From Oscillospiraceae bacterium (GTDB lineage: Bacteria > Bacillota > Clostridia > Oscillospirales > Oscillospiraceae), in NCBI GenBank assembly GCA_902787755.1, contig CADAHL010000025.1, positions 1 through 37,412 of the forward strand: a stretch of 37,412 nt of DNA, written 5' to 3'. Below the pieces are notes generated by a model. It ran no database searches and was not told the DNA's origin. It saw only the letters and a list, made by a program, of their open reading frames with translations. Below, piece after piece: positions 2,314 to 20,291 of this stretch. The position numbers were made by a program, and so were the translations under genes. Each line of letters begins with the position of its first letter. The first letter of the stretch is position 1.

Positions 2314-2330
2314 GGAAAACAGAATCAAAA

Positions 2331-2372
2331 AGCCAATGCACGGGAGAGCTTTCCCTGTGCATTGGCTTTTTT
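2331..2372 (+). terminator. Rho-independent terminator after GH120
   Basis: AGCCAATGCACGGG at 2331-2344 pairs with CCCTGTGCATTGGCT at 2353-2367 (one bulged base), followed by a T run to 2372. It lies 17 nt after the GH120 stop codon. The A run on its left side could also let it serve the minus-strand remnant ending at 2372. Confidence 0.85.
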
Positions 2373-2555
2373 CAGCTTTTGATCAGCTCGGCGCTGTAGG
2401 CCGGCAGGACCAGGGCATCCTGTATCGTCTGCTGCCGCAGAACTCCGAAGCCGGGCTCTGCGAGGGGGATCGAAACGGGCCGGTTCGTCGTATTCACGTA
2501 GAACCGGGCGCCCGGAGCAAGCTTCCGGGCCTGCACGCCCTCGGGAAGAGAAGCG
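2372..2555 (-). pseudogene. C-terminal remnant of a GH42-like beta-galactosidase
   Basis: Read on the minus strand from about 2555 to a TGA at 2374-2372, an open frame of about 60 codons contains LPEGVQARKL, FYVNTTNRPVSI and ends LVLPAYSAELIKS. This pattern (a small beta-sandwich with F-x-N-N-P-V followed by a LPPY/LPAYS ending) is typical of the C-terminal domain of GH42 beta-galactosidases. There is no start codon, ribosome binding site or catalytic domain; the frame breaks at about 2555, where sequence of the opposite orientation begins. It is a tail of a lost gene. Assignment to GH42 rather than another GH-A clan enzyme is moderate. Confidence 0.55.
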
Positions 2556-2640
2556 GGGCCTCAAGAAGGAGCGCACCAACATCTCCGCCACCAATCCCCT
2601 GATCCTCAAGCTGGCGAAGAAGGCCATGCAGAAGAATTGA
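2556..2640 (+). pseudogene. 3' remnant of an unidentified + strand gene
   Basis: An open + frame ends at TGA 2638-2640 with GLKKERTNISATNPLILKLA and then KKAMQKN, a basic C-terminus directly followed by a terminator at 2655. The frame has no start codon and merges upstream with the minus-strand GH42-like tail. The arrangement (real-looking stop, then terminator) suggests the end of a former gene. I do not recognise the family. Confidence 0.4.
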
Positions 2641-2654
2641 TCCCCTGTCAGCAA

Positions 2655-2684
2655 AGCAGCGGTGCCGCGCGCCGCTGCTTTTTT
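2655..2684 (+). terminator. Rho-independent terminator of the lost + strand gene
   Basis: AGCAGCGG (2655-2662) pairs with CCGCTGCT (2672-2679) around a 9-nt loop, followed by six T. It lies 15 nt after the stop of the remnant. Confidence 0.8.
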
Positions 2685-2741
2685 GACGATTTTTTTCCTG
2701 TTATGGCAAAAATAGATATTTCTTTTTCGGCACAGATTCTT

Positions 2742-2747
2742 TACAAT
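2742..2747 (+). promoter_or_regulatory. Possible -10 element of the GH3-GH42-SGNH operon
   Basis: TACAAT lies in an AT-rich stretch 40 nt before the GH3 start codon, after the preceding terminator. No convincing -35 hexamer is visible at 17 bp (TTTCTT at 2719-2724). Confidence 0.35.
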
Positions 2748-2787
2748 GTCATCGTGATCAAAACTGCATATCAAAGGAGGACCTTCC

Positions 2788-5193: not shown

Positions 5194-5197
5194 ACAG

Positions 5198-7267
5198 ATG
5201 AACAAGCAGAAGTATCAGTGGCCGGAATACACCGTCGGCGTGTGCTATTACCCCGAGCATTGGGACGAGAGCCTGTGGGAGAGCGATCTGGACCGGATGC
5301 TCGCCGCGGGGATCCACGTGGTGCGCATCGCGGAATTTGCCTGGAATCTCACGGAGCCGGAGGAGGGCGTTTTCCGCTTTGACTTCTTCGACCGCTTCCT
5401 GGATCTGTGTGCGGAAAAGGGCATGAAGGTCATCTTCGGCACCCCCACCGCCACACCGCCGGCATGGCTCACGAAGAAGTACCCCGAGGTCCTGAACGCG
5501 GATCAGAACGGTCTCCCCTACGAGCACGGCGCCAGACGCCACTACAACTACAATTCTCCCATCTACCGGGAGAAGGCGCGGATCATCGTCACCGTGCTGG
5601 CCGAGCACTACGGGAAGCATCCTGCCATCGCAGGCTGGCAGATCGACAATGAGATGAACTGCGAGACCTGCGAGTTTCATTCCGAGGCGGATCAGGAGGC
5701 CTTCCGCGTCTTTCTGAGAGAGACCTACGGCAGCCTGGATGCGCTCAACCGCGCCTGGGGAACGGCGTTCTGGAACCAGACCTACACCGCTTGGGAAGAG
5801 CTCCGCCTGCCCGGCCATGTGCTGAACGACGGCTGGAACCCTCATCAGCGGCTGGACTATCTCCGCTTTGTTTCCGCGAGCGCCCGCAGTTTCTGCAAGC
5901 TGCAGTCGGACATTCTGCACCGCTACAAAAAGCCCGGGGATTTCATCACCACCAACGCGCTCTTCTGGCATATCGACAACCCGAAGATGTTTGAGGAAAG
6001 CCTGGATCTCTTCGGCTACGACTCCTACCCCAACTTTGCCTTCGGCCTGAACCGCGAGGAAGTGCTGAAGGATCAGGGCTACGGCGTCGAGGGCGATCTG
6101 AACGACCGTCTGAGCGGAAAGAGCCTCAGCGAGGTGCGGGGCATCTGCCCCCATTTCGCCATTCTGGAGCAGCAGTCCGGCGCGGGCGGCTGGGTCAGCC
6201 GTATGGAGGGCCCGCAGCCGAGGCCCGGTCAGATCCGGCTCTGGGCCATGCAGAGCGTGGCCCACGGGGCGGACTTCGTCTCCTTCTTCCGCTGGCGGAC
6301 CTGCAGCTTCGGCACGGAGATGTACTGGCACGGTATCCTGGACTATGACGGCCGGGACAACCGCCGCCTGCGCGAGGTCGCGGCTTTCGCATCGGATCTG
6401 AAGAAGCTCGCGCCGCTGTGCGGCTCTGAGTACGCGGCCCCGCTCGCCATCGTCAAGGACTATGACAACGCCTGTGACGCCGAGGTCGACGTCTGGCATG
6501 GCCGCCTGAGCTTCCCGGATGATTCCGCGATCTATCAGCAGGCGCAGCTGAGCCACGTCCCCTGTGACTATCTCCATCTGGCGGACGATTCCGCACTCGA
6601 AGACCTCCGCCGCTATCCGGTGCTGATCTACCCGCATCCGGCGATCATGACCGGGGCGAGGGCGGATCTGCTCAAAGCGTACGTGGAGCAGGGCGGCACG
6701 CTGATCCTGGGCTGCCGCACGGGCTACAAGCAGGAAAACGGCCGGGCCATCCTGCTGCCCCCGCCGGGCCTTCTGCGTGAGCTCACCGGCAGCACGGTCC
6801 GGGAATCCGGCTTCTGGCACCCGGCGGAGCCCACCGTCACAGTGGAATGGAACGGCGAACGCTTCGAGGCTCCCCTGTTCCAGGATCAGCTGGAGGCGGA
6901 GGGCGACGCCGCGGTCCTGGCCCGGTATGACAGCTCCTGGTTCGCGGGAACGCCCGCGCTGATCGAGCACAGGCTCGGCGCCGGCCGCTGCCTCCACTGG
7001 GGCAGCACCTTCTCCCGGCCGCTGCTCAAAGAGCTGTTTGCGTATCTGGGCTTGACCGGCCGCTTTGACGAACTGCTGGACCTGCCGGAGGCCGTGGAGA
7101 TCGCCGAGCGGCGGAAGGACGGACGGCGCTTCCTCATGCTGCTCAACTACCTGCCGGAGGCGCAGGAAATCCTCCTGCACAGGGAAATGCGCGATATGCT
7201 GGAAGACAGGCCCGTCTCCGGGAAAATCAGTATGCCGCCCTTCGGCGTTCTCGTTTTGGAGGCATGA
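5198..7267 (+). CDS. GH42 beta-galactosidase
   Basis: The 689-residue GH42 enzyme hydrolyses terminal beta-galactose (some members take alpha-L-arabinopyranose) in the cytoplasm. The N-terminal TIM barrel carries GVCYYPEHW (14-22), the acid/base in QIDNEMNC (Glu152) and the nucleophile in AILEQQSG (Glu324). The trimerisation/glutamine-amidotransferase-like middle domain spans about 400-610. The C-terminal small beta domain ends MPPFGVLVLEA. The ATG at 5198 is preceded by GGAG at 5185-5188, overlapping the GH3 end; an in-frame extension to 5120 would lie wholly inside GH3 and is unlikely. The stop overlaps the Shine-Dalgarno region of the next gene (stop 7267, next start 7269), so translation is probably coupled. 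Confidence 0.93.
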   Translation: MNKQKYQWPEYTVGVCYYPEHWDESLWESDLDRMLAAGIHVVRIAEFAWNLTEPEEGVFRFDFFDRFLDLCAEKGMKVIFGTPTATPPAWLTKKYPEVLNADQNGLPYEHGARRHYNYNSPIYREKARIIVTVLAEHYGKHPAIAGWQIDNEMNCETCEFHSEADQEAFRVFLRETYGSLDALNRAWGTAFWNQTYTAWEELRLPGHVLNDGWNPHQRLDYLRFVSASARSFCKLQSDILHRYKKPGDFITTNALFWHIDNPKMFEESLDLFGYDSYPNFAFGLNREEVLKDQGYGVEGDLNDRLSGKSLSEVRGICPHFAILEQQSGAGGWVSRMEGPQPRPGQIRLWAMQSVAHGADFVSFFRWRTCSFGTEMYWHGILDYDGRDNRRLREVAAFASDLKKLAPLCGSEYAAPLAIVKDYDNACDAEVDVWHGRLSFPDDSAIYQQAQLSHVPCDYLHLADDSALEDLRRYPVLIYPHPAIMTGARADLLKAYVEQGGTLILGCRTGYKQENGRAILLPPPGLLRELTGSTVRESGFWHPAEPTVTVEWNGERFEAPLFQDQLEAEGDAAVLARYDSSWFAGTPALIEHRLGAGRCLHWGSTFSRPLLKELFAYLGLTGRFDELLDLPEAVEIAERRKDGRRFLMLLNYLPEAQEILLHREMRDMLEDRPVSGKISMPPFGVLVLEA

Positions 7268-7268
7268 T

Positions 7269-7925
7269 ATGAATCTCGGTCTGTATATCGCTCGTTTGTT
7301 CGTTCATCCGGAAAAGGCGGATCCCGGCCGCCGGCGCATTGCCTGTATCGGCGACAGCATCACCTTCGGCGCCGGCGTGGCGGCAACCCGGAAGACCGAC
7401 GCCTGGACCTATATTCTGCAGAACCGGCTTGGCGACAGCTTCCAGGTGCTCAACTACGGCGTCTCGGGAGCGACGCTCCAGCGGGAGGGTGATTTTCCGT
7501 ACCGCAGGATCGGTTTCCTGAAGAGGCTCAAAAAAGCGCAGCCGGAGCTGATCGTTCTGATGCTCGGCACCAACGACTCCAAGCCCTACAACTGGAACGC
7601 GGAGCGCTTTGGCCGGGAGTATGAGGCGCTGGTCAGGGAGCTGATCGCCATGCCCTGGCCCCACCGTCTTGTCCTGATGACGCCGCCCAAGGCATTCCCG
7701 GAGGAGAAAACCGGGGTGATCGGCTACGACATTCAAAACGAACCGATCCGGGACGTGATCCGCCCGCTGGTTTTCTCCCTCGGTCAGAGCTATGAACTGC
7801 AGGTGATCGATCTCTATGCCCTGACAGAGGAGCACCCCGAATATTTCTGTGACGGGGTGCATCCAAATGAGCTGGGAAACCGCATCCTCGCCGAGCAGCT
7901 TGTCAAGGAGCTCGCATTGGGCTGA
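7269..7925 (+). CDS. SGNH/GDSL-type esterase
   Basis: The 218-residue cytoplasmic SGNH hydrolase is probably a carbohydrate esterase that removes acetyl groups from hemicellulose-derived oligosaccharides. The four family blocks are visible: CIGDSITFGAG with nucleophile Ser30 (block I), YGVSG (block II glycine), LGTND at 99-103 (block III) and DGVHPN with Asp195/His198 (block V). GGAGG at 7258-7262 precedes the ATG, which starts 1 nt after the GH42 stop. Its position as third gene of a GH3-GH42 operon supports the deacetylase role. The exact substrate is inference; related proteins include isoamyl-acetate-hydrolysing-type esterases. No terminator is visible downstream. Confidence 0.85.
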   Translation: MNLGLYIARLFVHPEKADPGRRRIACIGDSITFGAGVAATRKTDAWTYILQNRLGDSFQVLNYGVSGATLQREGDFPYRRIGFLKRLKKAQPELIVLMLGTNDSKPYNWNAERFGREYEALVRELIAMPWPHRLVLMTPPKAFPEEKTGVIGYDIQNEPIRDVIRPLVFSLGQSYELQVIDLYALTEEHPEYFCDGVHPNELGNRILAEQLVKELALG

Positions 7926-8038
7926 GCAGAAGCAAATCGCAAAAATGCTTTTCACGAACAGAGCCCGGAGCAGACCGCTTCCGATCGCGAAGTCAGGATA
8001 AGAAAAGCGAATATTCACCCGTTCAATGCCATTATTTC

Positions 8039-8047
8039 TGCTATAAT
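8039..8047 (+). promoter_or_regulatory. Extended -10 promoter upstream of GH78
   Basis: TGC-TATAAT at 8039-8047 is a perfect extended -10 element 95 nt before the GH78 start. The -35 region is poor (GTTCAA at 8021-8026, 15-bp spacing), which an extended -10 can tolerate. The remaining intergenic sequence 7926-8142 shows no gene. Confidence 0.6.
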
Positions 8048-8142
8048 GGAAGCGATAAATGGAGCGAAGCGGCAGGGCTCCGTCTGACCGGGAAGCGGCC
8101 CGGCGGCGCCGGCGGCAATCGGATGAGGAGAGGAATTTTAAA

Positions 8143-10265
8143 ATGGATCTGAAAAACAGTCAATGGATCACCACAGCGCGGGACCTGGGCGGCGTCTGCC
8201 CGGTTTTCCGAAAGCGCTTTTGTGCGGAGAAGGAGATCCTCTCCGCCACTTTGGAGATCACCGCCCTCGGCGTCTATGAGGCGGAGCTGAACGGCCGGCG
8301 TGTGGGCGACTTCGTCCTGGCCCCGGGCTGGACCAGCTATGACCACCGCCTGCAGGTACAGAGAACGAGCTGCGCGTCACCGTGGGGCGCGGCTGGTTCC
8401 GCTCTCCCATGCCGGGCTTTGAGGAATCGGAGGATAAGCAGCGCCGCTTCCATCAGCCCTGCGGCCTGATCGCCCGTCTGGAGCTCCGCTATGCCGACGG
8501 CAGCGCGAGCGTTCTGGGTACCGATGAGAGCTGGGAGTTTGCCGAAAGTCCGGTCCGCTTCAGCGAGATCTACGACGGCGAGCGCTATGACGCGGCTTTT
8601 TCCCCCAAGGATTGGGAAAATGCCGCGGGGCTTGCCTGGTCGAAGGACATCCTGATCCCCCAGGAGGGCGAGATCGTCCGGGAGACGGAGCGGGTGGCCG
8701 CCAGGGCCGTACTGCATACTCCTGCCGGGGAGACGCTGATCGACTTCGGCCAGGAGGTCACGGGCTACGTGGAATTCTCCGTGACAGCCCGTGAGGGCGA
8801 TGAAGTCCGTTTTACCCACGGAGAAATGCTGGACGCTGACGGCAATTTCTACAATGCCAATTACCGCAGCGCCAAAGCGGAGCTGTGCTACCGCTGCAGG
8901 GAGGGACGCCAGACCTGGCATCCCCGCCTGACCTTCTTCGGTTTTCGCTATATCAAGCTGCTCTCGTGGCCGGGAGAGCTCCGGGCCGAGGACTTCACCG
9001 CCCTCGTCGTCCACTCGGACATGAAGCGAACCGGCTGGCTGGAATCCGGCGATCCGATGCTCAATCAGCTCTTTTCCAATATCGTCTGGGGCCAGCGCGG
9101 CAACTTCCTGGACGTGCCCACCGACTGCCCCCAGCGGGACGAGCGCCTGGGCTGGACCGGCGACGCCCAGGTCTTCGTCCGCACCGCATCCTATCTGTAC
9201 GACGTGGAGCGCTTCTTCCGCAAGTGGCTGCGGGATCTGGCCGCCGACCAGCGCGCAAGCGGCGAGGTGGGCCAGATCATCCCGGACGTGATGCCCGCGG
9301 CTCCCGGCAGCGCGGCCTGGGGCGACGCGGCGGTGATCTGCCCCTGGACGATCTACCAGACCTACGGCGATCTGTCCGTGCTCGAGGCGCAATACGAGAG
9401 CATGAAACAATGGGTGGATTACATCTCCGGGGACGGCTGGGAGGAACACTTCCACTTCGGCGACTGGCTTGGTCTGGACGCTCCCAGCGGCAGCTACAAG
9501 GGCTCCACACGGGACGGCTTCATCGCCGCCGCCTTCCGCCTCCACGCCATCGAGCTGCTCTGCAGAGCGGGACGCCTGCTGGGCAAAGATATTTGCGGCT
9601 ACATGGACCTGTACGAGGGCTTTGCCGAACGCTTCCGGGAAGATTATCCCGACTATCGCACCCAGACAGAGCATGTGCTGGCGATCCACTTCGGCCTGGC
9701 GGAGAATCCGCAGAAGACCGCCGACGCCCTGGCCGCTCTGGTCTGCGCCGACGGAAAGCAGCTGCGCACCGGCTTCGTGGGTACGCCCTATCTGCTGCAC
9801 GCCCTCACCGATTACGGTCACGCGGAGCTGGCCTGGGATCTGCTGCTGCGCAGGGCCTACCCCGGCTGGCTCTACTCGGTGACCAGGGGCGCCACCACGA
9901 TTTGGGAGCACTGGGACGGGGCGAAGGAGGATGGCAGCTTCTGGAGCACCGACATGAACTCCTTCAACCACTACGCCTACGGCGCGGTGGCGGACTGGGT
10001 CTTTGAAAAGGCCGCGGGCATCTGGCACGAGGAGAACGCTCCGGGCTTCTCGACGCTGATCTATGAACCCCATCCCGATCCCCGGATCGGATTTCTCAAA
10101 GCAGCGCTGGAGACCCGTCACGGGACCATCCGCGCGAGCTGGCGCTATGAAGGCGACGGCATTCGGTACGAGCTGGAGACGCCGGTTCCCGTGACCGTCC
10201 GCCTTGACCATACCCAGCGGCAGCTGGAAGCCGGAAGCTATACCTTCTGGACTGCGGCAAAATAA
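8143..10265 (+). pseudogene. GH78 alpha-L-rhamnosidase, broken by a small out-of-frame deletion
   Basis: The gene starts well (GGAGAGG before ATG 8143; MDLKNSQWIT) and encodes the N-terminal carbohydrate-binding domain up to APGWTSYDHRLQVQ. At about 8358-8361 the frame changes and the protein resumes in another frame with ENELRVTVGRGWFRS. GH78 proteins normally have about 11-16 residues here (a YDVT-LL--GEN stretch), and they are missing. The rest is intact: CPQRDERLGWTGD near 9129-9165 carries the catalytic acid Asp, and TTIWEHWDG near 9895 the catalytic base Glu. The enzyme would cleave terminal alpha-L-rhamnose. As given, translation stops at about 8467. It is a true pseudogene unless the break is an assembly error. 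It probably forms an operon with the GH43 gene, 22 nt downstream. Confidence 0.85.
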
Positions 10266-10287
10266 ACGGAGCGGCAAAGGAGGCATT

Positions 10288-11340
10288 ATGTATCACGCTT
10301 TTTATCCCGGTCGGGAGTGGCTGGATACGGAGGGCAAGCCCATCCAGGCCCACGGCGGCTCTGTGATCTATGTGAAGGATCGCTATTACTGGTACGGGGA
10401 GAATAAAGAAAAGACCGACGGAAAGAACGGAATCTGGCACTGGGGAGTCCGCTGCTACAGCTCCGCGGATCTGTACAACTGGAAGGACGAGGGCCTCATC
10501 ATCCCTCCGGATCCGGAGGATGAGACCTCGCCCCTGCATCCGTCTGCCTGCATGGACCGGCCGCATATTCTGTTCAATGCGCAGACCGGGAAGTTCGTCT
10601 GCTGGCTGAAGATCATGGAGAAGGACGGGCGCCAGACGGAGACCGTATTGACGGCGGACCGGATCCTCGGCCCCTACACCATCGTGAAAACCGGGCTGAT
10701 GCCCCTGGGCATGAGCGCCGGGGACTTCGATCTGGCGGCAGACGAGAACGGAAAAGCCTATTACTTCTTCGACAAGGTCCACAGCGAGATGATCTGCGCG
10801 GAGCTGACGGAAGATTACACCGACGTCAGCGGCGTATTCAGCCGCCATTTTCCCCGCAGCCAGCCGCCCTATGTGCGGGAGGCCGTCGCCCATTTCAAGC
10901 GCGGCGGTCTGCACTATCTGATCACCTCCGGCACCACCGGCTACCTGCCGAACCCCTCGGAGCTGGCGGTTTCCGAAGACTGGCACGGGCCCTACCGTCT
11001 GCTGGGCGAGGTGCATCCCGGCGACGAGAGCCATACCTCCTTCCACAGTCAGGTTTCCTGCGTTTTCAAGGTGCGGGAGAGAGAGGACCTGTATATCGCC
11101 ATGGCCGACCGCTGGGTACCGGACCGGATGGATCTGCGCTACGAGGATTACGCAGAGTGGTTCCGCATCCGCTTTGCGCCCGGGTCCACGGACGAGGAGC
11201 TGGCGCGTGCGGAGGAGCTGGGCAAGCGCCTGCCCGCCGACGGGGAGATCAGCACCGCCAAAGCCCGCTACGTCTGGCTGCCGTTCCGCTTTGACGGAGA
11301 ACAGGCCGTTCTCGACTGGCAGGACGAATGGACATGGTAG
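10288..11340 (+). CDS. GH43 family glycosidase (exo-galactanase-like subgroup)
   Basis: The 350-residue, single-domain five-bladed beta-propeller enzyme has no signal peptide. The opening QAHGGSVIYVKDRYYWYGEN (20-39) and the segments MDRPHILFNAQTGKFVCWL (89-107) and SAGDFDLAADENGKAYYF are typical of the GH43 branch that includes subfamilies 24 and 34. The proposed acid is Glu198 in YVREAVAHFKRGG, followed by the conserved LITSGTTGYLPNP. In this branch the usual N-terminal catalytic Asp of GH43 is absent, as here (Gln/His-Gly-Gly instead). Likely substrates are beta-1,3-galactan or arabinogalactan side chains; this is inference. AAAGGAGG at 10276-10283 sets the ATG, just after GH78. Confidence 0.8.
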   Translation: MYHAFYPGREWLDTEGKPIQAHGGSVIYVKDRYYWYGENKEKTDGKNGIWHWGVRCYSSADLYNWKDEGLIIPPDPEDETSPLHPSACMDRPHILFNAQTGKFVCWLKIMEKDGRQTETVLTADRILGPYTIVKTGLMPLGMSAGDFDLAADENGKAYYFFDKVHSEMICAELTEDYTDVSGVFSRHFPRSQPPYVREAVAHFKRGGLHYLITSGTTGYLPNPSELAVSEDWHGPYRLLGEVHPGDESHTSFHSQVSCVFKVREREDLYIAMADRWVPDRMDLRYEDYAEWFRIRFAPGSTDEELARAEELGKRLPADGEISTAKARYVWLPFRFDGEQAVLDWQDEWTW

Positions 11341-11379
11341 GGAGACCCGCGGGCGCGGGATTTCAGGAAGAAAAACATC

Positions 11380-11461
11380 ATGCTGAGAAAGATCATAAAA
11401 ATCCAGGAAGAGCGCTGCAATGGCTGCGGCCTGTGCGCCAATGCCTGTCATGAGGGCGCCC
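11380..11461 (+). pseudogene. 5' remnant of a 2[4Fe-4S]-type ferredoxin-like protein
   Basis: ATG at 11380 opens MLRKIIKIQEERCNGCGLC and then ANACHEGA, a standard first [4Fe-4S] motif (CxxCxxCxxxC). The second cluster motif and everything after the alanine are missing: from about 11462 the sequence is the end of a different gene in another frame. The remaining reading frame runs out as GC-rich nonsense. Such ferredoxins serve electron transfer and often sit beside flavodoxins. The fragment is too short to function. Confidence 0.7.
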
Positions 11462-11701
11462 CAGGCCTACTATCAGCTCCAGTACAAGCGGAAGCTCAGC
11501 GCCCAGGCGGACAGCTTCCGCAGTCTGAACGGAACGGTGCGGATGCTCGCCAGCTGCGATACCCTGCAGGTCAGCGACTACAGCAGGTTCAGCATGGCCG
11601 GCTTCGACGCCGAGCACAAAAAGGCCCACCACGAGAAGCAGTTTCCCCTGGACCTGGAAAAAGCCCGTCAGATGGGCGCGGATCTGGTGCGCCTGGGATA
11701 G
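11462..11701 (+). pseudogene. 3' remnant of a flavodoxin / NADPH-dependent FMN reductase-like protein
   Basis: The + frame from about 11462 to TAG 11699-11701 reads AYYQLQYKRKLSAQADSF, then CDTLQVSDYSRFSMAGFD and ends FPLDLEKARQMGADLVRLG. This is how many clostridial flavodoxin-family proteins end (W/C-x-TLQV-DYS...FP-DLE-A--LG). The N-terminal FMN-binding part is missing and the segment is fused out of frame to the ferredoxin start. A good terminator follows. The family name is a moderate-confidence recognition. Confidence 0.55.
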
Positions 11702-11724
11702 GCCGCCCTGTACCCCGATTCTCG

Positions 11725-11762
11725 CGCGCAGCCGCTCGGAACTCGAGCCGCTGCGCGTTTTT
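11725..11762 (+). terminator. Rho-independent terminator closing the GH78-GH43-remnant unit
   Basis: CGCGCAGC (11725-11732) pairs with GCTGCGCG (11750-11757), with an inner GCTCG/CGAGC stem, followed by five T. Confidence 0.8.
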
Positions 11763-11816
11763 CTGCCCTCCCGTACCGGTATCAAAATGCGTACCAGGTA
11801 CAGGAAATCTGTGTAC

Positions 11817-11844
11817 TTGATTTCAAAAACAGATATGGTACAAT
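11817..11844 (+). promoter_or_regulatory. Promoter of the Shango-like operon
   Basis: TTGATT (11817-11822) and an extended -10 TGG-TACAAT (11836-11844) are separated by 16 bp, 47 nt before the first start codon. The region 11763-11875 is more AT-rich than its surroundings. No clear operator palindrome is visible. Confidence 0.7.
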
Positions 11845-11890
11845 AAATATACTTGTTTGAGGCAATGAGTCCGGCCCGGGAGGTGATCGA

Positions 11891-13723
11891 ATGCAGCTGG
11901 AGGAACTGACGGCCTACGCCAGAGAAAAATATCAGATCGAGGAAGAGCACAAGTGGGTGGATTTCCCCGGCTTCTCCGTGCTGTGCCATCCCGAGACGGG
12001 AAAGTGGCTGGCCCTTCTCATGCGCCAGTGGGATCCCGATTCCGGTACCATGCTCCAGCGCTGCGATCTGAAGTGCGGAGACGACAGTCTGCTGCGGGCG
12101 CGGCAGGACTTTCTTCTTCCTCCCCTTCGGATGCGGGGCCGGCAGTGGCTCGGGATTGCCTTCGACGATCGGACGGACCCGGAGCTGGTTTTCCGGCTGT
12201 TCGACCGGGCAGTGGCTGCCGGCAGGCCCCAGGGCTATACCATCGTGCTGGGCTCCCCGCCTCCGGACCGGGAGACGTCCTATCGGGACACCGCTCTGCC
12301 CTTTACCCCCGGAACCCGCCGGGCGGAACGGGAAGAGCTCCCGGACCGGCTGCGGGAGATGCGGCGGCTCTATGAATACGGCCGGGAGACTCCCGCCGCC
12401 AAGGCCAGGAACTTCTACCGGCAGGCCATGTTCATGCGGGACTATGAGGACGATCTGCCCTGGACCGGGGACTTCAACTGCTACTTCCCCACCTACCACG
12501 ATATGAACACCCGACAGCTCCGGGGCTACTTCACCTGGCGTACCCAGCTGCGCAAGGGCAATGCCCAGCCGATCCCGGAATCTGCCGCCTACCTTTACCT
12601 CTACGAGCTTCTCAACGGCGCAGGCGCGGCCTCGCCTCAGGAGAGTCTGGAGAAGCTGCGGGAATTTGAAAGGCTCTATCTGGACGCGGGCTTTGGCAGC
12701 AAAGCCATGGGCGCCAATCTCCGGCGCTGGATGCTGGAGTTCGCGGTGCTGAAGGACCTGCCGCCGGAGCTGGCCCGTCAGGCGGCGGACCCGGCGATGA
12801 TGGAGCTGGACTCCGCCCTGTCCGCTCTGCGCCGGCCCGAGAGCTATCTGGACGCGGAGGTATTCTCCGCCCTGTGCCTGCTGGGCGGCAAAAAGCTCGA
12901 AAGCTCGCCGGTTCTGGGCCCCGACCCGGAGAGGGGCAAGGCCCTGTTCGCAAACTGCTGGCGGGCGGCCGCCCGGGGAAAGGAGCTCTTCTCCCTCTGC
13001 TTCGGGCAGAAGACGCTCCGGCGCTGGTATCCGCTGGTCAACGCCGTCTATTACGAGCAGGCGGCTCAGCGAAACCGGGAATACCGGCTGAGCCCCTGCC
13101 GCAGCTATCTCTATCGGAACGGGCTCTGGCAGGTGGAGGCTTACGACAAGGCAAACTTTGACAAGAACCGGCTTCAGGCCTTTCTGCACGAGTGTGACGC
13201 CCGGCTGCGCCGCTATCTGAAAACCGGCCGAAGCCTGAAGGAGAATCCCTCCGACGCTTGGGTCATCCCCTATGTGGACGAGGCGATCCGGGAGGATAAG
13301 AAGGCGCTTTTGGAGGCCAGGCGCGCCCAGGTCCGGATCGATCTGAGCGGGCTGGACCGGATCCGCCGGGACGCGGCGGTGACCCGGGAGAGCCTGCTGA
13401 CCGACGAGGAGCGGGCGGAAGCGGAATCGCTCGCCGCGGCGCCGGAGCCGGAGCCGGTCCTCGCGCCGGAGCCGGAACCGTCCGGGGTGAACCTGGACCC
13501 GACGGATCGGGAGCTGCTGCTGGCGCTGCTGGCGGGACGGGAGACCGGGCCGATCCTCAGGGCCGCTCACCGGATGCCCTCCATCGCCGCCGACGCCGTC
13601 AACGAAGCCTTCTTCGACGAGATCGGCGACACCGTGGTGCTCTGCGAGGGGGACGCGCTGGTCCTGGTGGAGGATTATATCGAAGACATTCAGCGTTTGC
13701 TGGGAGGAAACACCAATGGATGA
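11891..13723 (+). CDS. sngA: Shango-like TerB-domain protein SngA, with MmcQ-like N-terminal domain
   Basis: The 610-residue protein is the first component of a predicted antiphage system. Residues about 1-120 resemble the MmcQ/YjbR fold (FSVLCHPETGKWLALL, CDLKCG, MRGRQWLGIAFDD then DPELVFRLFDRA). Residues about 155-350 are TerB_N-like (PTYHDMNTRQLRGYFTWR at 200-217 is the signature stretch). An acidic/proline linker (EPEPVLAPEPEP) near 520 leads into the TerB_C-like end (DPTDRELLLALLAG, VLVEDYIEDI). In Shango the TerB protein partners an ATPase and a helicase, exactly as here. GGAGGTGATC at 11879-11888, almost the full anti-Shine-Dalgarno complement, sets the start. The gene overlaps sngB by 8 nt. 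Arginine codons are mostly CGG, unlike the upstream glycosidases. TerB proteins also occur in tellurite-resistance-type loci, but the neighbours favour Shango. Confidence 0.82.
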   Translation: MQLEELTAYAREKYQIEEEHKWVDFPGFSVLCHPETGKWLALLMRQWDPDSGTMLQRCDLKCGDDSLLRARQDFLLPPLRMRGRQWLGIAFDDRTDPELVFRLFDRAVAAGRPQGYTIVLGSPPPDRETSYRDTALPFTPGTRRAEREELPDRLREMRRLYEYGRETPAAKARNFYRQAMFMRDYEDDLPWTGDFNCYFPTYHDMNTRQLRGYFTWRTQLRKGNAQPIPESAAYLYLYELLNGAGAASPQESLEKLREFERLYLDAGFGSKAMGANLRRWMLEFAVLKDLPPELARQAADPAMMELDSALSALRRPESYLDAEVFSALCLLGGKKLESSPVLGPDPERGKALFANCWRAAARGKELFSLCFGQKTLRRWYPLVNAVYYEQAAQRNREYRLSPCRSYLYRNGLWQVEAYDKANFDKNRLQAFLHECDARLRRYLKTGRSLKENPSDAWVIPYVDEAIREDKKALLEARRAQVRIDLSGLDRIRRDAAVTRESLLTDEERAEAESLAAAPEPEPVLAPEPEPSGVNLDPTDRELLLALLAGRETGPILRAAHRMPSIAADAVNEAFFDEIGDTVVLCEGDALVLVEDYIEDIQRLLGGNTNG

Positions 13724-15044
13724 ACAGAAAAAGGTGCCCAAGCGCATCGCGCAGACGGTCCTGAACTCTCTCAAGGGCGGCGTCGTGCCCCGGATCGGCC
13801 TGCCCTATATCGCGGTGGGGCGAAAGAATGAGATCGAGGCCCTGCTGCACGACGTGGACATCATCTCGGAGGGCGGCGCGTCCTTCCGCTTTATCGTGGG
13901 CCGCTACGGCAGCGGCAAGAGCTTTCTCCTGCAGACCATCCGAAACTACGTGATGGACCGGGGCTTTATCGTGGCGGACGCGGATCTCTCTCCGGAGCGG
14001 CGGCTCCAGGGCACCCGGGGCCAGGGGCTGGCCACCTACCGGGAGCTCATCTCCAATCTGTCCACCAAAACCAAGCCCGAGGGCGGCGCTCTGACCCTGG
14101 TGCTGGACCGCTGGATCAGCGCGGTACAGAGCGAAGCCATTCGGGAGACCGGCCTTTCGCCCGACGATCCCGCTCTGGCTGCCGCCACCGACCGGAAGAT
14201 CTACGCCGTCACCGCCTCGGTCAGCGAGCTGGTCCACGGCTTTGAGTTTGCACGGCTCCTCTCCGCCTATTACCGGGCCTATCTGGAGGGCGACGACGAG
14301 ACGAAGGCCAAAGTCGTTCGCTGGTTCCGGGGGGAATACGCGCTGAAAAGCGAGGCCAAAGAGGCCCTGGGTGTGAATATCATCATCACAGATGACGACT
14401 GGTACGACTACCTGAAGCTCTTTGCCGTCTTCTTCCGGCAGGCGGGTTACGCAGGCATGATGATCATGGTGGACGAGCTGGTGAACATCTACAAGATCCC
14501 CAACACCATCACCCGCCAGTACAACTACGAGAAGATGCTGACCATATACAACGACACCCTGCAGGGCAAGGCCCGGTATCTGGGCATCATTATGGGCGCC
14601 ACGCCCCAGGCCCTGGAGGACAAGCGCCGGGGCATCTACAGCTACGAGGCCCTGCGCTCCAGGCTTTCGGAGGGGCGCTTCTCCCGGCCCGGCGCCAGAG
14701 ACCTGCTGGCCCCGGTGATCCGGCTGGAGCCTCTGACCGCCGAGGAGATGCTGGTGCTGTGCGAGAAGCTGGCGGAAATGCACGCCGGGCTCTACGGCTA
14801 TTCCCGCCGCGTCACCACCGAGGACCTGGTCGGCTTTCTGAAGATCGAATACGGCCGCATCGGCGCTGATCAGAACATCACGCCCCGGGAGGTGATCCGG
14901 GACTTCATCGAGCTGCTGGACCTGCTGTACCAGAACCCGGACATGGGCGTGGGCGCCCTGCTGGAATCCGAGGAATTCAGCTACGCCAAGTCGGAGGCCC
15001 TGTCAGATGAGGCCGACCCTGGCTTTGTGGAGTTTACGATATGA
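13716..15044 (+). CDS. sngB: Shango-like P-loop ATPase SngB (DUF2791 / BrxD-like)
   Basis: The 442-residue ATP-binding protein has Walker A GRYGSGKS at 62-69 and Walker B MMIMVDEL at about 248-255. The N-terminal KRIAQTVLNSLKGGVVPRIGL and VGRKNEIEALL are typical of the DUF2791 ATPases found in BREX (BrxD) and in Shango. The sequence TRQYNYEKMLTIYNDTLQGK and the later ARYLGIIMGATPQAL correspond to sensor-side segments of the AAA-type core, and the C-terminal part (about 330-420) is a winged-helix-like region. It probably loads or powers the helicase encoded next. GGGAGG at 13702-13707 precedes the ATG; the stop overlaps the sngC start as ATGA. Translation of all three sng genes is therefore likely coupled. 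Confidence 0.87.
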   Translation: MDEQKKVPKRIAQTVLNSLKGGVVPRIGLPYIAVGRKNEIEALLHDVDIISEGGASFRFIVGRYGSGKSFLLQTIRNYVMDRGFIVADADLSPERRLQGTRGQGLATYRELISNLSTKTKPEGGALTLVLDRWISAVQSEAIRETGLSPDDPALAAATDRKIYAVTASVSELVHGFEFARLLSAYYRAYLEGDDETKAKVVRWFRGEYALKSEAKEALGVNIIITDDDWYDYLKLFAVFFRQAGYAGMMIMVDELVNIYKIPNTITRQYNYEKMLTIYNDTLQGKARYLGIIMGATPQALEDKRRGIYSYEALRSRLSEGRFSRPGARDLLAPVIRLEPLTAEEMLVLCEKLAEMHAGLYGYSRRVTTEDLVGFLKIEYGRIGADQNITPREVIRDFIELLDLLYQNPDMGVGALLESEEFSYAKSEALSDEADPGFVEFTI

Positions 15045-17293
15045 ACGTGTTCGAGCGCTACGCGCCATTTATTCAGGACTATATCTACCGCTCGGGCTGG
15101 CAGAGCCTGCGGGCGGTGCAGAACGCCGCCGGGGACGCCATCTTCGGCACCGATCAGAACGTGCTGCTGACGGCCTCCACCGCCTCGGGCAAGACGGAGG
15201 CCGCCTTCTTCCCCATTCTGACCCTGCTGGACGAGGAGCCCTCCCGGACCGTGGGAGTTCTCTACATCGCGCCGCTGAAGGCGCTGATCAACGACCAGTT
15301 CGGGCGCCTCAATGAGCTGTGCGAGGAGCAGGGCATCGCCGTCACCCGCTGGCACGGGGACGCGTCCCAGTCCCGGAAGCGGAAGCTCCTGAAAAAGCCC
15401 TCGGGGATCCTGCAGATCACCCCGGAGTCCCTGGAATCGCTGATGATCAACAAGCACATGGAGATCCCCTCCCTGTTCGGAGATCTGCGCTTTATCGTCA
15501 TCGACGAGATCCACTCCCTCTTGCGGGCGGACCGGGGCCTGCAGACCTTCTGCCTGATCCAGCGGCTGTGCCGGCTGGCCGGCTGCGATCCCCGGCGGAT
15601 CGGCCTGTCCGCCACCATCGGCGATCCGGAGCTGGCGGGACAGTTTCTGGCCGCCGGCAGCGGCCGGGGCACCGTGATCCCCCGCTTCGACGGGGGCAGA
15701 GAGGTCTGGCGGCTGAGCATGGAGCACTTCTACAACGCCGCGCCCCAGGCGGACGAGGGCAAGCCCGCGCCGGACTCCACACCCCCGGTGGAGGAGCCGA
15801 GCGACACCGCCCCCAAGGCGGCGGATCCGGGCATCGGCTATATCTTCGAGCATACCCGGGGCAGGAAGTGCCTGGTCTTTACCAACTCCCGGGAGGAGTG
15901 CGAATCCGTCTGCCAGCAGCTAAGGCAGTACTGCGAGGTCAATCATGAGCCGGACCGCTTCCTGATCCACCACGGCAATCTCTCCGCCTCCTACCGGGAG
16001 AGCGCCGAGGAGGAGATGAAAGACGACGAGTCCCTGATGTCGGTCTGCGCCACCGCCACTCTGGAATTGGGCATCGACATCGGCCGGCTGGAACGGGCCT
16101 TTCAGATCGACGCGCCCTTCACCGTCTCCGGCTTTCTCCAGCGCATGGGCCGCACCGGGCGGCGGGGCGATCCCTCGGAGATGTGGTTCGTGATGCGGGA
16201 GGACCATCAGGAGGCCCGGGCCATGCTGCCCGACGCCATTCCCTGGTATCTGATCCAGGGGATCGCCCTGGTGCAGCTGTACATCGAAGAGCGCTTTGTG
16301 GAGCCGCCGAGAATGGACCGGCTACCCTACAGTCTGCTGTATCACCAGACCATGAGCACCCTGGCCTCCCACGGGGAGATGAGCCCGGCGGAGCTGGCCT
16401 CCCGGGTGCTGTCTCTCAGCTGCTTCCATAGGATCACCCAGGACGACTACCGGCTGCTGCTGCGGCACCTGCTGGAGATTGAACACATCATGCGCACGGA
16501 AAACGGCGGCCTGATCCTGGGACTGCCCGGGGAGCGGGTGGTGAACAACTATAAGTTCTACGCCGTGTTCCAGGAGAACGTGGAATACACGGTCCGCTCC
16601 GGCTCCGAGCAGCTTGGCACCATCGTCAAGCCCCCTCCGGTGGGCGACAAGATCGCCATCGCCGGCCGGGTCTGGGTGGTGGAGGAAGTGGATCACAAGC
16701 GGCGGGAGCTGTTCTGCACCCTGGTCAAGGGCAATATCCCCGCCTACTTCGGCGACGTGGCCGGGGATATCCATACCCGGATCCTGGAGCGGATGTTCCG
16801 GGTGCTGGGCGAGGACCGGCAGTATCCCTACCTGATGCGCCACGCGGTCTGCCGCCTGGCCGACGCCCGGGAGACCTTCCGCAAGTCCGGTATGGCCGGT
16901 CGGCCCCTGGTCCATCTGGGCGGCAAAATGTGGGCGCTGTTTCCCTGGCTGGGCAGCTACGCCTTCCTGGCCATGGAGCGCTTTCTGAAGCTGCGCTGCG
17001 CCGAGGCGCTGGGACTCAAGGGGCTTCAGTCCTCCCGGCCTTACTATATGCAGTTTACCATGCAGGCCACGGAGGAGGAGTTCTATGAGGTCCTCAGCCG
17101 GGAGGCCGCCCGGGACTTCGACCCCCTGGAGCTGGTCTACCCCAACGAGGTGCCGGTCTTTGAGAAGTACGACGAGTATGTCCCCGAGGAGCTGGTGCGC
17201 AAGGGCTTTGCCTATGGCGTGCTGGATCTGGAGGGCATGCGGCGGCGGGTCCTGAGCTGGAAGGAATTCGGAGGTGAGCAGGATGAGCGGTGA
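15041..17293 (+). CDS. sngC: Shango-like superfamily 2 helicase SngC (Lhr-like DEAD/DEAH)
   Basis: The 750-residue helicase has motif I TASTASGKT (44-52), motif Ia IAPLKALINDQF, motif II DEIH (155-158), motif III LSATIGDP (189-196) and motif VI QRMGRTGRRGD (367-377). The order and wording are Lhr-like, as in BREX BrxHI and Shango SngC. Residues about 400-750 form a winged-helix and a specific C-terminal domain without recognisable nuclease motifs. It probably translocates on phage nucleic acid under control of SngA/SngB. It starts in a 4-nt ATGA overlap with sngB, and its last 11 nt overlap the next gene. The 235-265 region (ADEGKPAPDSTPPVEEPSD) is a low-complexity insertion between the two RecA domains. 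Confidence 0.88.
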   Translation: MNVFERYAPFIQDYIYRSGWQSLRAVQNAAGDAIFGTDQNVLLTASTASGKTEAAFFPILTLLDEEPSRTVGVLYIAPLKALINDQFGRLNELCEEQGIAVTRWHGDASQSRKRKLLKKPSGILQITPESLESLMINKHMEIPSLFGDLRFIVIDEIHSLLRADRGLQTFCLIQRLCRLAGCDPRRIGLSATIGDPELAGQFLAAGSGRGTVIPRFDGGREVWRLSMEHFYNAAPQADEGKPAPDSTPPVEEPSDTAPKAADPGIGYIFEHTRGRKCLVFTNSREECESVCQQLRQYCEVNHEPDRFLIHHGNLSASYRESAEEEMKDDESLMSVCATATLELGIDIGRLERAFQIDAPFTVSGFLQRMGRTGRRGDPSEMWFVMREDHQEARAMLPDAIPWYLIQGIALVQLYIEERFVEPPRMDRLPYSLLYHQTMSTLASHGEMSPAELASRVLSLSCFHRITQDDYRLLLRHLLEIEHIMRTENGGLILGLPGERVVNNYKFYAVFQENVEYTVRSGSEQLGTIVKPPPVGDKIAIAGRVWVVEEVDHKRRELFCTLVKGNIPAYFGDVAGDIHTRILERMFRVLGEDRQYPYLMRHAVCRLADARETFRKSGMAGRPLVHLGGKMWALFPWLGSYAFLAMERFLKLRCAEALGLKGLQSSRPYYMQFTMQATEEEFYEVLSREAARDFDPLELVYPNEVPVFEKYDEYVPEELVRKGFAYGVLDLEGMRRRVLSWKEFGGEQDER

Positions 17294-17669
17294 GGCCATG
17301 AGCTATGAGGAATATCTGGTCAAGCTGAAGAACGGCATCGTCACCCGGGACGGCAACTGCCCGGTGACCCCTTTGCTGCTCATGCTCCAGGGCCGGTGGA
17401 AATCCCAGCTGATGTACGAGATGTGCATCCATGATACCGTGCGCTTCGGCCAGCTCAAGAGGGACCTGCCCGGCATTACCAACACCATGCTGACCAAGGC
17501 CCTGCGGGAGCTGGAGGAGGACGGGCTCATCCACCGGGAGCAATTCAACGAGATCCCACCCCACGTGGAGTATTCCCTGACCGAGATGGGGCGGGACCTG
17601 CAGCCCGTGTTCTACGCCATCATGAACTGGGGCTTCCGGCACGAGAAGGAATTATATGGCAAACCCTGA
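17283..17669 (+). CDS. HxlR-family winged-helix transcriptional regulator
   Basis: The 128-residue regulator has a single winged helix-turn-helix of the HxlR type: CPVTPLLLMLQGRWKSQLMY, RFGQLKRDLPGITNTMLTKA (recognition region), LEEDGLIHREQFNEIPPHVE and YSLTEMGRDLQPV are all standard for the family. Members sense redox state, electrophiles or small molecules, and repress or activate neighbouring genes. GGAGG at 17270-17274 lies 8 nt before ATG 17283; an upstream GTG at 17274 overlaps that site and is less likely. The start lies inside sngC (11-nt overlap), so it is part of the same operon. HxlR is not one of the three named Shango components, so here it may autoregulate the operon or control the DUF5131 gene. 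CGG-rich arginine codons match sngABC. Confidence 0.85.
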   Translation: MSGEAMSYEEYLVKLKNGIVTRDGNCPVTPLLLMLQGRWKSQLMYEMCIHDTVRFGQLKRDLPGITNTMLTKALRELEEDGLIHREQFNEIPPHVEYSLTEMGRDLQPVFYAIMNWGFRHEKELYGKP

Positions 17670-17680
17670 GGTGATGACCC

Positions 17681-18556
17681 TTGCATGATATCTGGAATCC
17701 CTGGCACGGCTGCGTCCGATGCAGCGAAGGCTGCCAGAACTGTTATATGTACTTCCTGGACGCCCAGCGTGGCAAGGACGGCGGCGAGATCTACCGCACC
17801 AAGGCGGGCTTCCGCTATCCCCTGTCCCGGGACCGGGAGGGACGGTACAAAATCAAAAGCGGCGAAATGCTCCGGGTCTGCATGACCTCCGACTTCTTTC
17901 TGCCGGAGGCCGACGCCTGGCGTCAGGAGGCCTGGGACATCATCCGCCAACGGCCGGACGTGAAGTTCTTCCTGCTGACCAAGCGGCCCCAGCGGGTGGC
18001 AGACCAGCTCCCCGACGACTGGGGCGAGGGCTGGGAGAACGTGATGTTCAACGTCACCTGCGAGAACCAGCGCCGGGCCGACGAGCGGATCCCCCTTCTC
18101 CTGTCCCTGCCCTTCAAGCACAAGGGCATCATGTGCGCGCCCTTCATCGGGCCGGTGAGCATCGAACAATACCTGCCCGAAGGTCAGATCGAGCAGGTGC
18201 TGTGCGACGGGGAGAATTACGGCGGGGCCCGGCCCTGCCGCTACGAGTGGGTCAAGGCCCTGCACGATGAGTGTGCGGCCCACAACGTGACCTTCGTCTT
18301 CTGCGGCACCGGCCGGCGCTTCGTGAAGGACGGAAAGACCTATCACCTGGAGGGAAGCGTTCAGTCCGAGCAGGCCCGCAAATCCGGGCTGAGCTTCCTG
18401 GGCAGGCCCATGGACTTCAAGCTCTGCGATACCTGGGGCTGTCCCATCCCGAAGGAGGAGCTGTACGTGCCCCGATACGGCTCCCGGTGCGAAAAATGCG
18501 GCATGCAGCTCATCTGCAACGGCTGCAGTCAATGCGGCAAATGCGGGGAAGTCTGA
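17681..18556 (+). CDS. DUF5131 (phage Gp37/Gp68-type) radical-SAM-like protein
   Basis: The 291-residue protein belongs to the DUF5131 family, found in phages and defence-type loci. HDIWNPWHGCVRCSEGCQNC begins at residue 2 and holds Cys14-x3-Cys18-x2-Cys21, the canonical radical-SAM [4Fe-4S] triad, plus Cys11. LLTKRPQR and NVMFNVTCENQRRADERIPL are family-conserved. The C-terminus has six cysteines (270, 273, 279, 282, 285, 288), suggesting a second cluster or a zinc knuckle. The only usable start is TTG at 17681: an in-frame stop at 17675-17677 rules out an upstream one, and GAGGTGAT at 17668-17675 is a strong ribosome binding site. It lies 11 nt after hxlR in the Shango-like operon. The reaction and substrate are unknown; a nucleotide or RNA modification role is speculation. 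Confidence 0.85.
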   Translation: MHDIWNPWHGCVRCSEGCQNCYMYFLDAQRGKDGGEIYRTKAGFRYPLSRDREGRYKIKSGEMLRVCMTSDFFLPEADAWRQEAWDIIRQRPDVKFFLLTKRPQRVADQLPDDWGEGWENVMFNVTCENQRRADERIPLLLSLPFKHKGIMCAPFIGPVSIEQYLPEGQIEQVLCDGENYGGARPCRYEWVKALHDECAAHNVTFVFCGTGRRFVKDGKTYHLEGSVQSEQARKSGLSFLGRPMDFKLCDTWGCPIPKEELYVPRYGSRCEKCGMQLICNGCSQCGKCGEV

Positions 18557-18581
18557 GCTCCGCAGCCTCTCCCGACAACGA

Positions 18582-18629
18582 AAAAAGGCGGCTCCGACCG
18601 GCACACAGCCGGGTCCGAGCCGCCTTTTT
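18582..18629. terminator. Bidirectional terminator between the Shango-like operon and ydcF
   Basis: A perfect 13-bp stem, AAAAAGGCGGCTC (18582-18594) with GAGCCGCCTTTTT (18617-18629), plus an inner CCGG/CCGG stem, has T runs in both directions. It lies 25 nt after the DUF5131 stop and 24 nt from the convergent ydcF stop. Confidence 0.92.
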
Positions 18630-18652
18630 CTGTTTCTTCGGTTTTTCCCCGC

Positions 18653-19684
18653 TCAGCCCGCGATCAGCACGTACAGGATGGGGCCGATAAACACCGCATA
18701 TCCCAACAGGGACCAGATCAGAAACCGACGGGTCAGGAAGATGGCGATAAACTCCCGGATCAGGGCAGAGGGCCAATAGTACAGGGCCACATCCGCGCCG
18801 ATGCCGGTACACTTCAGGCCCGCTTCCCGGGCCAGGCGCAGGCAGCGGTACACATGATAGTTGCTGGACACCAGCGCCGTCCTCTTCCGGCCCGGCCGGG
18901 CATCAATGATCTCCTTGGAATACAGAAGGTTTTCCCGGGTGGTTTTGGACCGGTCCTCCGGCAGGATGCACTCCTCGGGGATCCCGTGCTCCAGCAGGTA
19001 CTTCTTCATGGCCTCCGCCTCGCTGAGCTTCTCGTCGTCGCCCTGTCCGCCGCTGGGGATGAGGATGGGCTTCCGCCGACATTTTCGCCAGATCTGGATG
19101 GCCTTGTCCACCCGGTTGGAGAGGAGCTTTGTCATCCGTTCTCCCCCGGCCAGACCGCAGCCGTGGATGATCACATAGTCGAAATTCATCCTGTGCGGCA
19201 TGATCTGGATAAACACCGTGTAGATGACGAAGCTCAGCACCAGAGAGCTGAAATAGAACACCGTAAAGGTAATGGCCAGAAACCAGGGCTCCGGCCGCCC
19301 TAGGCCGCTGAAATCCCGCAGCCCCAGCACATAGGCCACCGCCGCCAGCTCCCCCAGCCCCACCACGAGGCCCAGTGCCAGAGACAGCAGGTGGGCGGGG
19401 CTCAGGCCTTCCCGGCGGATCAGCTGGATCCCGTTGAGGATCAGCAGCACCGGCGCCAGCAGAAGGCCCAGCAGAATGAGCAGGACGCCGGCCAGCAGGA
19501 TCCAGGGACCGATCCTGTCCCCGAACAGTCCGGCCACAAACACCAGGGTGACCAGCAGGGCTCCCAGCAAAAGGAAGCTGTTCAGATACCGCTGGGGCCG
19601 GAGCAGCGCGCACAGGATCGTCACGACCCAGACCCCGGCAAACACGGGGCCCATGGTCCGAAGAAATTCCGACAGTTCCGTCAT
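18653..19684 (-). CDS. YdcF/ElyC-family (DUF218) membrane protein
   Basis: The 343-residue protein has about five hydrophobic helices in the first 165 residues (for example LNSFLLLGALLVTLVFVAG and WILLAGVLLILLGLLLAPVL). A DUF218 domain follows at about 168-300, with VIIHGCGLAGGERMTKLL, PILIPSGGQGDDEKLSEAEAM, EDRSKTTRENL and ALVSSNYHVYRCLRLAREAG. A last membrane segment closes the protein. DUF218 proteins such as ElyC, SanA and YdcF act in envelope homeostasis and bind S-adenosylmethionine in YdcF; the reaction in Firmicutes is unknown. It starts 13 nt after the cyclase gene stop, with a GAGGGG site overlapping that stop, so it is the second gene of the operon. It ends at a shared terminator. 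Confidence 0.87.
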   Translation of the reverse strand: MTELSEFLRTMGPVFAGVWVVTILCALLRPQRYLNSFLLLGALLVTLVFVAGLFGDRIGPWILLAGVLLILLGLLLAPVLLILNGIQLIRREGLSPAHLLSLALGLVVGLGELAAVAYVLGLRDFSGLGRPEPWFLAITFTVFYFSSLVLSFVIYTVFIQIMPHRMNFDYVIIHGCGLAGGERMTKLLSNRVDKAIQIWRKCRRKPILIPSGGQGDDEKLSEAEAMKKYLLEHGIPEECILPEDRSKTTRENLLYSKEIIDARPGRKRTALVSSNYHVYRCLRLAREAGLKCTGIGADVALYYWPSALIREFIAIFLTRRFLIWSLLGYAVFIGPILYVLIAG

Positions 19685-19697
19685 TCGCTTCCGCCCC

Positions 19698-20291
19698 TCA
19701 TTTCCGGATCAGGGTAGCGCGGCAGGGCGCTCCCTCCGCGCCTGCCAGATTCAAGGGCGCCGCGTGCAGGAAGCAGGCTCCCTCTTCCACCGCCCCCAGC
19801 CGGATCCCCTCCAGCAGAACGACCCCGGCGCCCAGCAGGATGAGATGCACCTGCATCGGGGCCTCCTCCGGTCCCACGGTCTGGGATTCGTTTCCAAAGA
19901 GCCGGATCCCTCCGGCCGCGAAGACCCGGGCCCCTTCCTCGGTCAGGAAGGCTTTCCCCTTTACGAGGATCCGTTCCTCCGTCCCGGGCCGGCGCTCCCG
20001 CGCCTCGCGCAGGATCCGCCCGGCGTCCTCCGCCAGGATCGGCCCCTCATGCTCCGCCACCCAGGCCGGCCCCACAAAGCTCTCCAGCGGCAGCTGATCG
20101 ATGCTCTTCCCCTCCCGGAGGAAGTGCAGCGGCGCGTCCACGTGAGTACCGTTGTGGGCGCACATAAAGAACGCGCTCAGATTGCAGTTCTCGCCGTCCT
20201 CCATCCTCTTCAGAGTCTTCCGCTCCGGTTTCGGATTCCCGGGAAAGACCGCACAGGAGAACAGCTCCTGGGAGATATCATAAATCTTCAT
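19698..20291 (-). CDS. Cyclase-family metal hydrolase (kynurenine-formamidase-like)
   Basis: The 197-residue protein of the cyclase family (KynB-like fold) carries the metal-binding signature HNGTHVDAPLHF at 46-57 (HxGTHxDxP). The family hydrolyses N-formylkynurenine, isatin or other cyclic or amide substrates using Mn or Zn. MKIYDISQELFSCAVFPGNP at the N-terminus is characteristic of the small clostridial members. The substrate cannot be deduced; no tryptophan-degradation genes are nearby. An AAGGAAG-type site precedes the ATG at 20291. It is the first gene of a two-gene minus-strand operon with the DUF218 protein, with a clear promoter at 20373-20401. Confidence 0.85.
   Translation of the reverse strand: MKIYDISQELFSCAVFPGNPKPERKTLKRMEDGENCNLSAFFMCAHNGTHVDAPLHFLREGKSIDQLPLESFVGPAWVAEHEGPILAEDAGRILREARERRPGTEERILVKGKAFLTEEGARVFAAGGIRLFGNESQTVGPEEAPMQVHLILLGAGVVLLEGIRLGAVEEGACFLHAAPLNLAGAEGAPCRATLIRK

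Follow-up and report, generated by a model that had tools for sequence, protein, structure and literature searches.

A Shango-type operon of Oscillospiraceae with an HxlR-family regulator gene and a predicted operator shared with radical SAM mobile pair cassettes

The defense system Shango, as described in the available passages of PMC10250203, consists of three genes that encode a TerB-like protein, an ATPase and a helicase. No account of how Shango is switched on is given in the passages available from PMC10250203, PMC12278908, PMC10221251, PMC7641849 and PMC11577772. Here, we analyzed a stretch of 37,412 nt (the window) from an Oscillospiraceae bacterium (GCA_902787755.1, contig CADAHL010000025.1), annotated to the left of position 20732, that encodes the same three genes in the same order, followed by genes for an HxlR-family regulator and a DUF5131 protein. 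We propose, with a probability of roughly 70%, that this Shango operon is under control of its own HxlR regulator and represents an HxlR-controlled variant, which shares its switch with the cassettes of the radical SAM (S-adenosylmethionine) mobile pair, the NCBIfam name of TIGR04470 (pair B) and TIGR04471 (pair A). The core genes are already known; the novelty lies in a Shango variant defined by the HxlR regulator and the shared switch.

Compared with the published system, the window unit adds HxlR with its putative operator and DUF5131, and its SngA protein has a YjbR-like N-terminal domain. HxlR, operator and DUF5131-family proteins are common to this unit and the mobile pair cassettes; however, the window unit has no pair B, and its HxlR gene is located downstream of sngC rather than divergently. 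Immune operons controlled by dedicated regulators, namely CapK/CapS (PMC13373217) and RptR (PMC12255303), offer a parallel, but the regulators in the available passages are different. Fusions of YjbR with TerB and with EVE are on record in PMC7641849, the available part of which draws no link to Shango, HxlR or DUF5131. Among the matches listed for the open-access literature, as far as their passages go, we saw no HxlR-controlled defense system, and PMC11577772 names HxlR only as a neighbor gene of a prophage. No open-access full text was found that combines Shango and HxlR, or that contains DUF5131, PF07505 or the mobile pair names, and both negatives are weak, as they cover open-access papers only.

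The ORF (open reading frame) check places five plus-strand genes at positions 11891-18556, overlapping or separated by at most 11 nt. The first three of them, sngA (11891-13723), sngB (13716-15044) and sngC (15041-17293), match the PADLOC models for SngA (1.9e-72), SngB (2.5e-191) and SngC (1.3e-283). Pfam assigns TerB_N and TerB_C domains to SngA, the BrxC_BrxD domain (PF10923, 2.9e-170) to SngB, a BrxC/BrxD-like ATPase, and DEAD and Helicase_C domains to SngC, a BrxHI-like DEAD/DEAH helicase. With overlapping ORFs in the order A-B-C, a TerB-domain SngA and the SngB ATPase, the unit belongs to Shango by its core genes, as a first-pass annotation made from the sequence alone had stated, and anti-phage activity is predicted. 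The gene for the winged-helix HxlR regulator (17283-17669, plus strand, ATG start; PF01638, 4.2e-29) begins inside sngC, which it overlaps by 11 nt, and the gene for the long-form DUF5131 protein (17681-18556, plus strand, TTG start) begins 11 nt after the HxlR stop; these junctions, and the position of both genes outside the described three-gene core (PMC10250203, available passages), agree with the same annotation. A predicted intrinsic terminator at 18577-18635 on the plus strand has a strong fold (-36.7 kcal/mol, z -6.8) followed by a U run, and is absent from the list returned by a pattern scan of 10500-20000. Terminator-like plus-strand matches inside the genes (12088 and 13867) are at chance level (four on both strands vs. 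a shuffle mean of 5.4), in line with the earlier claim of a terminator only at the far end. Judged by its sequence features, the five-gene unit is real.

The predicted operator and promoter block of HxlR (11776-11853, plus strand), delineated by an operator model, alignment and promoter scan, precedes sngA. The putative sngA promoter has its -35 element at 11817-11822 and its -10 element at 11839-11844. A distal inverted repeat, GGTAT-n8-GTACC, is located at 11778-11795 and is accompanied by GTAC half-sites, and a proximal inverted repeat (11837-11853) overlaps the -10 element. The pattern scan of 10500-20000 returned three sigma-70-like sites on both strands; since this is few above the shuffle mean of 1.2, the promoter claim rests mainly on conservation. 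The site at 11817-11844 is the only one on the plus strand, and the scan, by pattern alone, gave no separate promoter for HxlR and DUF5131.

A conserved block occurs upstream of sngA in the HxlR-bearing loci, and likewise between HxlR and the divergent cassette genes. The operator model was built from 14 non-Shango HxlR promoters and contains no sequence from Shango loci, while the 11-mer that selected these promoters was chosen after viewing Shango and non-Shango promoters together. Searched with nhmmer against 145 sequences (1.6 Mb, some overlapping), the model matched the window block with E = 2.8e-10 and the Shango loci L120, L130, L075, L183, L073, L211, L072/L175 and L208 with E-values from 5.6e-13 to 4e-10; L163 has an operator at E = 5.6e-7, and L208 a second site, oriented to sngA, at E = 2.9e-7. 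The best match in a Shango locus without HxlR had E = 0.54 (L079). Within the genome of the window, there are two occurrences of the 11-mer core (five for the reversed control), one at sngA and the other inside a long open frame on contig C1.

We then counted operators, in either orientation, up to 500 bp upstream of sngA. Among 43 sngB-bearing rows, 14 were left out owing to contig ends or a missing sngA. The 29 testable loci comprise nine with both HxlR and operator and 20 with neither, and no locus has one without the other (Fisher p = 1e-7); for the YjbR-type loci alone, the respective numbers are nine, six and none (p = 2e-4). These p values are inflated because the loci are related. Several points limit the case for control of Shango by HxlR: relatedness leaves two independent pairs on well-supported branches and five on all branches (sign test p = 0.5), an HxlR-flavin reductase locus (L217) has no operator match, and the operator of L211 points to a divergent esterase rather than to sngA. 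HxlR presence changes five times on a quick SngB tree; for the tree tests, L075 was scored as HxlR-positive since HxlR is on another contig (L074) of the same genome, and L106 was left out. Altogether, HxlR appears to regulate the very operon that encodes it, acting at a predicted operator.

The conservation of this arrangement was assessed from both ends of the unit, with part of the ORF calls taken from a simple script that yields spurious ORFs in high-GC DNA. The search for SngB alone covered 250 genomes of the family (E <= 1e-50) and 391 of the class (E <= 1e-200). SngB proteins of at least 80% identity are encoded in 16 genomes, 12 of which are readable behind sngC (the window, G181, G123, G060, G376, G178, G011, G174, G608, G127, G326 and G259), while L082, L083, L084 and L210 are unreadable and fall outside the 12. 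HxlR follows sngC in six of these 12 loci (the window, G181, G123, G060, G326 and, in broken form, G259) and DUF5131 is present in four (the window, G181, G259 and, as a remnant, G123). Neither gene was found in the 15 readable loci among the 20 covered at lower SngB identity, a set that leaves out G167, G502, G567 and G028:C106. In G174, from the window's genus, Shango lacks HxlR, and a DUF5131 relative (80%) is encoded on another contig. On the DUF5131 side, 80 loci were kept from 330 relatives, and eight of them (L114, L117, L120, L130, L138, L163, L175 and L183, labeled Oscillospiraceae, Christensenella, Solobacterium, Clostridia or Clostridiales) have Shango genes just upstream. The window's five-gene order is repeated in G181 (L072), L120, L130, L163 and L183; L072 and L175 represent one contig of G181 as exact reverse complements of each other, and L175 was used in place of L072. 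Other layouts are sngABC-DUF5131 without HxlR (L117), the end of sngB and sngC in three pieces followed by DUF5131 (L114), sngC-HxlR-pair B-DUF5131 (L138), and, in L211 (5581-15276), esterase, sngABC, a broken HxlR, YjbR, a Fer4 protein, DUF5131 and macro, where the operator block is kept despite the broken HxlR. Thus, HxlR and DUF5131 do recur behind sngC in other genomes. The first-pass annotation had suggested a regulated or chemically augmented Shango that would be new if conserved; its regulatory half is well supported, as several genera and families show the combination of HxlR behind sngC with the operator ahead of sngA.

The same predicted operator and close HxlR relatives are found at operons of flavin reductase, pair A and pair B (L090, L218-L221 and L224), at a unit composed of esterase, pair B, YjbR, DnaQ and DUF5131 (L152), and at others. 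The two kinds of loci also intermingle: in L138, pair B separates HxlR from DUF5131, and in L183 it is placed upstream of sngA. Pair A also belongs to the DUF5131 family (PF07505, 113 bits; cut-off 28.9); the DUF5131 protein of the window (P0005) is not pair A (19.6 bits vs. the TIGR04471 cut-off of 355). The best match to pair B in the window's genome reaches 68.7 bits against a cut-off of 410, and lies on another contig. In the HxlR phylogeny, a tree without an outgroup, the nine Shango-locus regulators and that of L115 form one clade (86/87), which belongs to a starred group (95/94) with four HxlRs of pair B cassettes and L208. The window unit therefore carries a cassette-type HxlR and operator, an association that comes from this analysis and has no published definition. 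The wider spread of the cassettes suggests that the switch moved from them to Shango and not the reverse. The shared switch places DUF5131 and the radical SAM mobile pair in a functional setting, and a sequence-defined operator together with its regulator makes the switching-on of Shango directly testable. A further HxlR relative (69%) was observed near the tail of an FMN reductase/ABC transporter gene run in L089 (7769-11390), with the same operator at the head of the run and a UvrA-like gene, recognized by eye, after it.

How the switch might work is suggested by its layout. Cysteine-based sensing of oxidants or electrophiles is common among HxlR proteins, and Cys26 and Cys48 are invariant in all 28 aligned HxlR rows. 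The inverted repeat over the -10 element suggests repression; we infer that HxlR would repress the operon, and hence its own gene, by covering the sngA promoter. HxlR would be released by a signal of the redox, electrophile or ligand type, perhaps perceived via Cys26/Cys48, so that sngABC, HxlR and DUF5131 would rise together upon a chemical or infection signal. DUF5131 would then be an enzyme of the [4Fe-4S]/radical SAM type, probably with nucleic acid as its target, that belongs to a common stress or repair regulon; it would be expressed alongside Shango without being a component of the core machinery. A broader version of this scenario, which we regard as tentative and less likely than not, is a regulon of gut Firmicutes that is switched by HxlR and has exchangeable parts: a single pair of operator and regulator and a radical-SAM-like DUF5131 tail gene would be combined with alternative nucleic acid modules, such as Shango, the radical SAM pair with YjbR and DnaQ-like exonuclease, or, via DUF5131 alone, Sir2/macro or UG26 reverse transcriptase. 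A single chemical stress would then induce both anti-phage immunity and repair enzymes, and during the action of Shango, DUF5131 would protect or modify the DNA or RNA of the host.

The CX3CX2C motif is characteristic of radical SAM enzymes. DUF5131 of the window (PF07505, 1.3e-37; PADLOC PDC-M30B/M41B, 4.9e-26 and 7.8e-26) contains C14-X3-C18-X2-C21, and C11, C14, C18, C21 and six C-terminal cysteines are invariant in all 38 aligned long-form rows. Its structural model (mean predicted local distance difference test score 78.8, below 50 at residues 4-32, the site of the motif) is similar to TIM barrels, among them SuiB, viperin-like enzymes and spore photoproduct lyase, but also unrelated barrels. 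Foldseek with this model gave a best E-value of 0.012 and none at or below 0.001, no relative of solved structure was found by sequence, and no Radical_SAM Pfam match was obtained at E <= 0.1. The term radical-SAM-like is reasonable but not proven, resting on a cysteine pattern and a modeled TIM-barrel-like fold. No model match to a PDC-M30/PDC-M41 partner gene was obtained among the unit's five proteins, the part of the window covered by the PADLOC scan.

The most serious competing proposal, still improbable in our estimate, makes DUF5131 a functional enzymatic arm that would modify or cleave phage nucleic acid, instead of a mere co-regulated neighbor. The slot right behind sngC/HxlR is filled by non-monophyletic copies, also in loci without HxlR (L117 and L114): on a quick tree with 91 DUF5131 sequences, the ten Shango-linked ones need eight changes (shuffled mean 9.6; 29/500 as low), at least three of them on starred branches, and one gain with two losses may also account for these. 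The Shango-linked DUF5131s are not grouped as the HxlRs are, which fits repeated recruitment or exchange. In a single example (G164, L078:2790-5054), an 80% DUF5131 relative follows the defense reverse transcriptase UG26 (PADLOC, 1.6e-161) after 6 nt, and none of the other loci searched with this reverse transcriptase contains one. However, DUF5131 is missing in L073 and L208, is a remnant in L074, and is common behind genes without a known defense role. The genes directly upstream of it in the 80 loci are DnaQ-like exonuclease (14), HxlR (seven, including a distant one of 40% in L112), pair B (six), YjbR (five), Sir2 (three), sngC (two) and DUF362 (two), with a contig edge in five loci and none of the 14 query genes in 36. 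With Shango in only 8 of the 80 loci, we rejected DUF5131 as a Shango-specific gene, and the suggested chemical augmentation remains a conjecture, though the cysteines and modeled fold are compatible with radical SAM chemistry.

Somewhat less probable is an activating or co-activating role of HxlR at the Shango promoter. A position upstream of the -35 element, as seen for the distal palindrome and half-sites, would suit this role; however, the proximal palindrome overlaps the -10 element, the usual place for repression, and L117, which has neither HxlR nor the operator block, retains full-length sngABC matches and a promoter-like sequence. It is unlikely that HxlR and DUF5131 form a separate cassette that was inserted behind sngC and is expressed by read-through only, with HxlR regulating something else. 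An operator-HxlR-DUF5131 arrangement in a locus with no Shango match (L115), the many unrelated genes that precede DUF5131 and the scattered Shango-linked DUF5131s agree with such a cassette, but the operator is located upstream of sngA in 9/9 testable Shango loci with HxlR and in 0/20 without it. A chance neighborhood or assembly artifact, to which the apparent origin of the eight Shango-bearing DUF5131 loci from metagenome-assembled genomes might point, can be dismissed, since contigs from several families repeat the order, and their genes overlap or lie close together.

The additional N-terminal domain of SngA spans about residues 4-107. The Pfam YjbR match is weak (1.3e-4, below cut-off), and hhalign of a profile of 14 SngA N-termini against 11 free-standing YjbR proteins gave a probability of 98.3 (E = 1.7e-14). 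In loci with SngB below 80%, the tblastn match to SngA starts beyond residue 110; the SngA structure model has low confidence (predicted template modeling score 0.46). By eye, the YjbR proteins had seemed to contain an EVE domain; this guess was dropped, as no Pfam EVE match was obtained at E <= 0.01 in the proteins tested. Six DUF5131 loci are in viral contigs, where the pattern method found no SngB relatives.

Several minor features were observed around these genes. Macro-domain and/or Sir2-like genes, with ADP-ribose as a common theme, are directly beside DUF5131 in L134 (5183-7894), L164 (1048-3789) and L211 (13620-15276), and a broken DUF5131 copy in L092 (7009-7475) is directly behind a gene recognized by eye as rarA-like. 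In the window, a short ferredoxin-like ORF (11380-11820) was considered as a sixth gene and rejected, since it has the appearance of a remnant that precedes the promoter; this 4Fe-4S-binding ORF, noted at 11380-11701, apparently shifts frame after about 30 residues and is probably a decayed gene. Farther upstream, the region 292-11340 beside the defense operon is occupied by glycoside hydrolase genes (GH120-type insertion domain, GH3, GH42, rhamnosidase and GH43).
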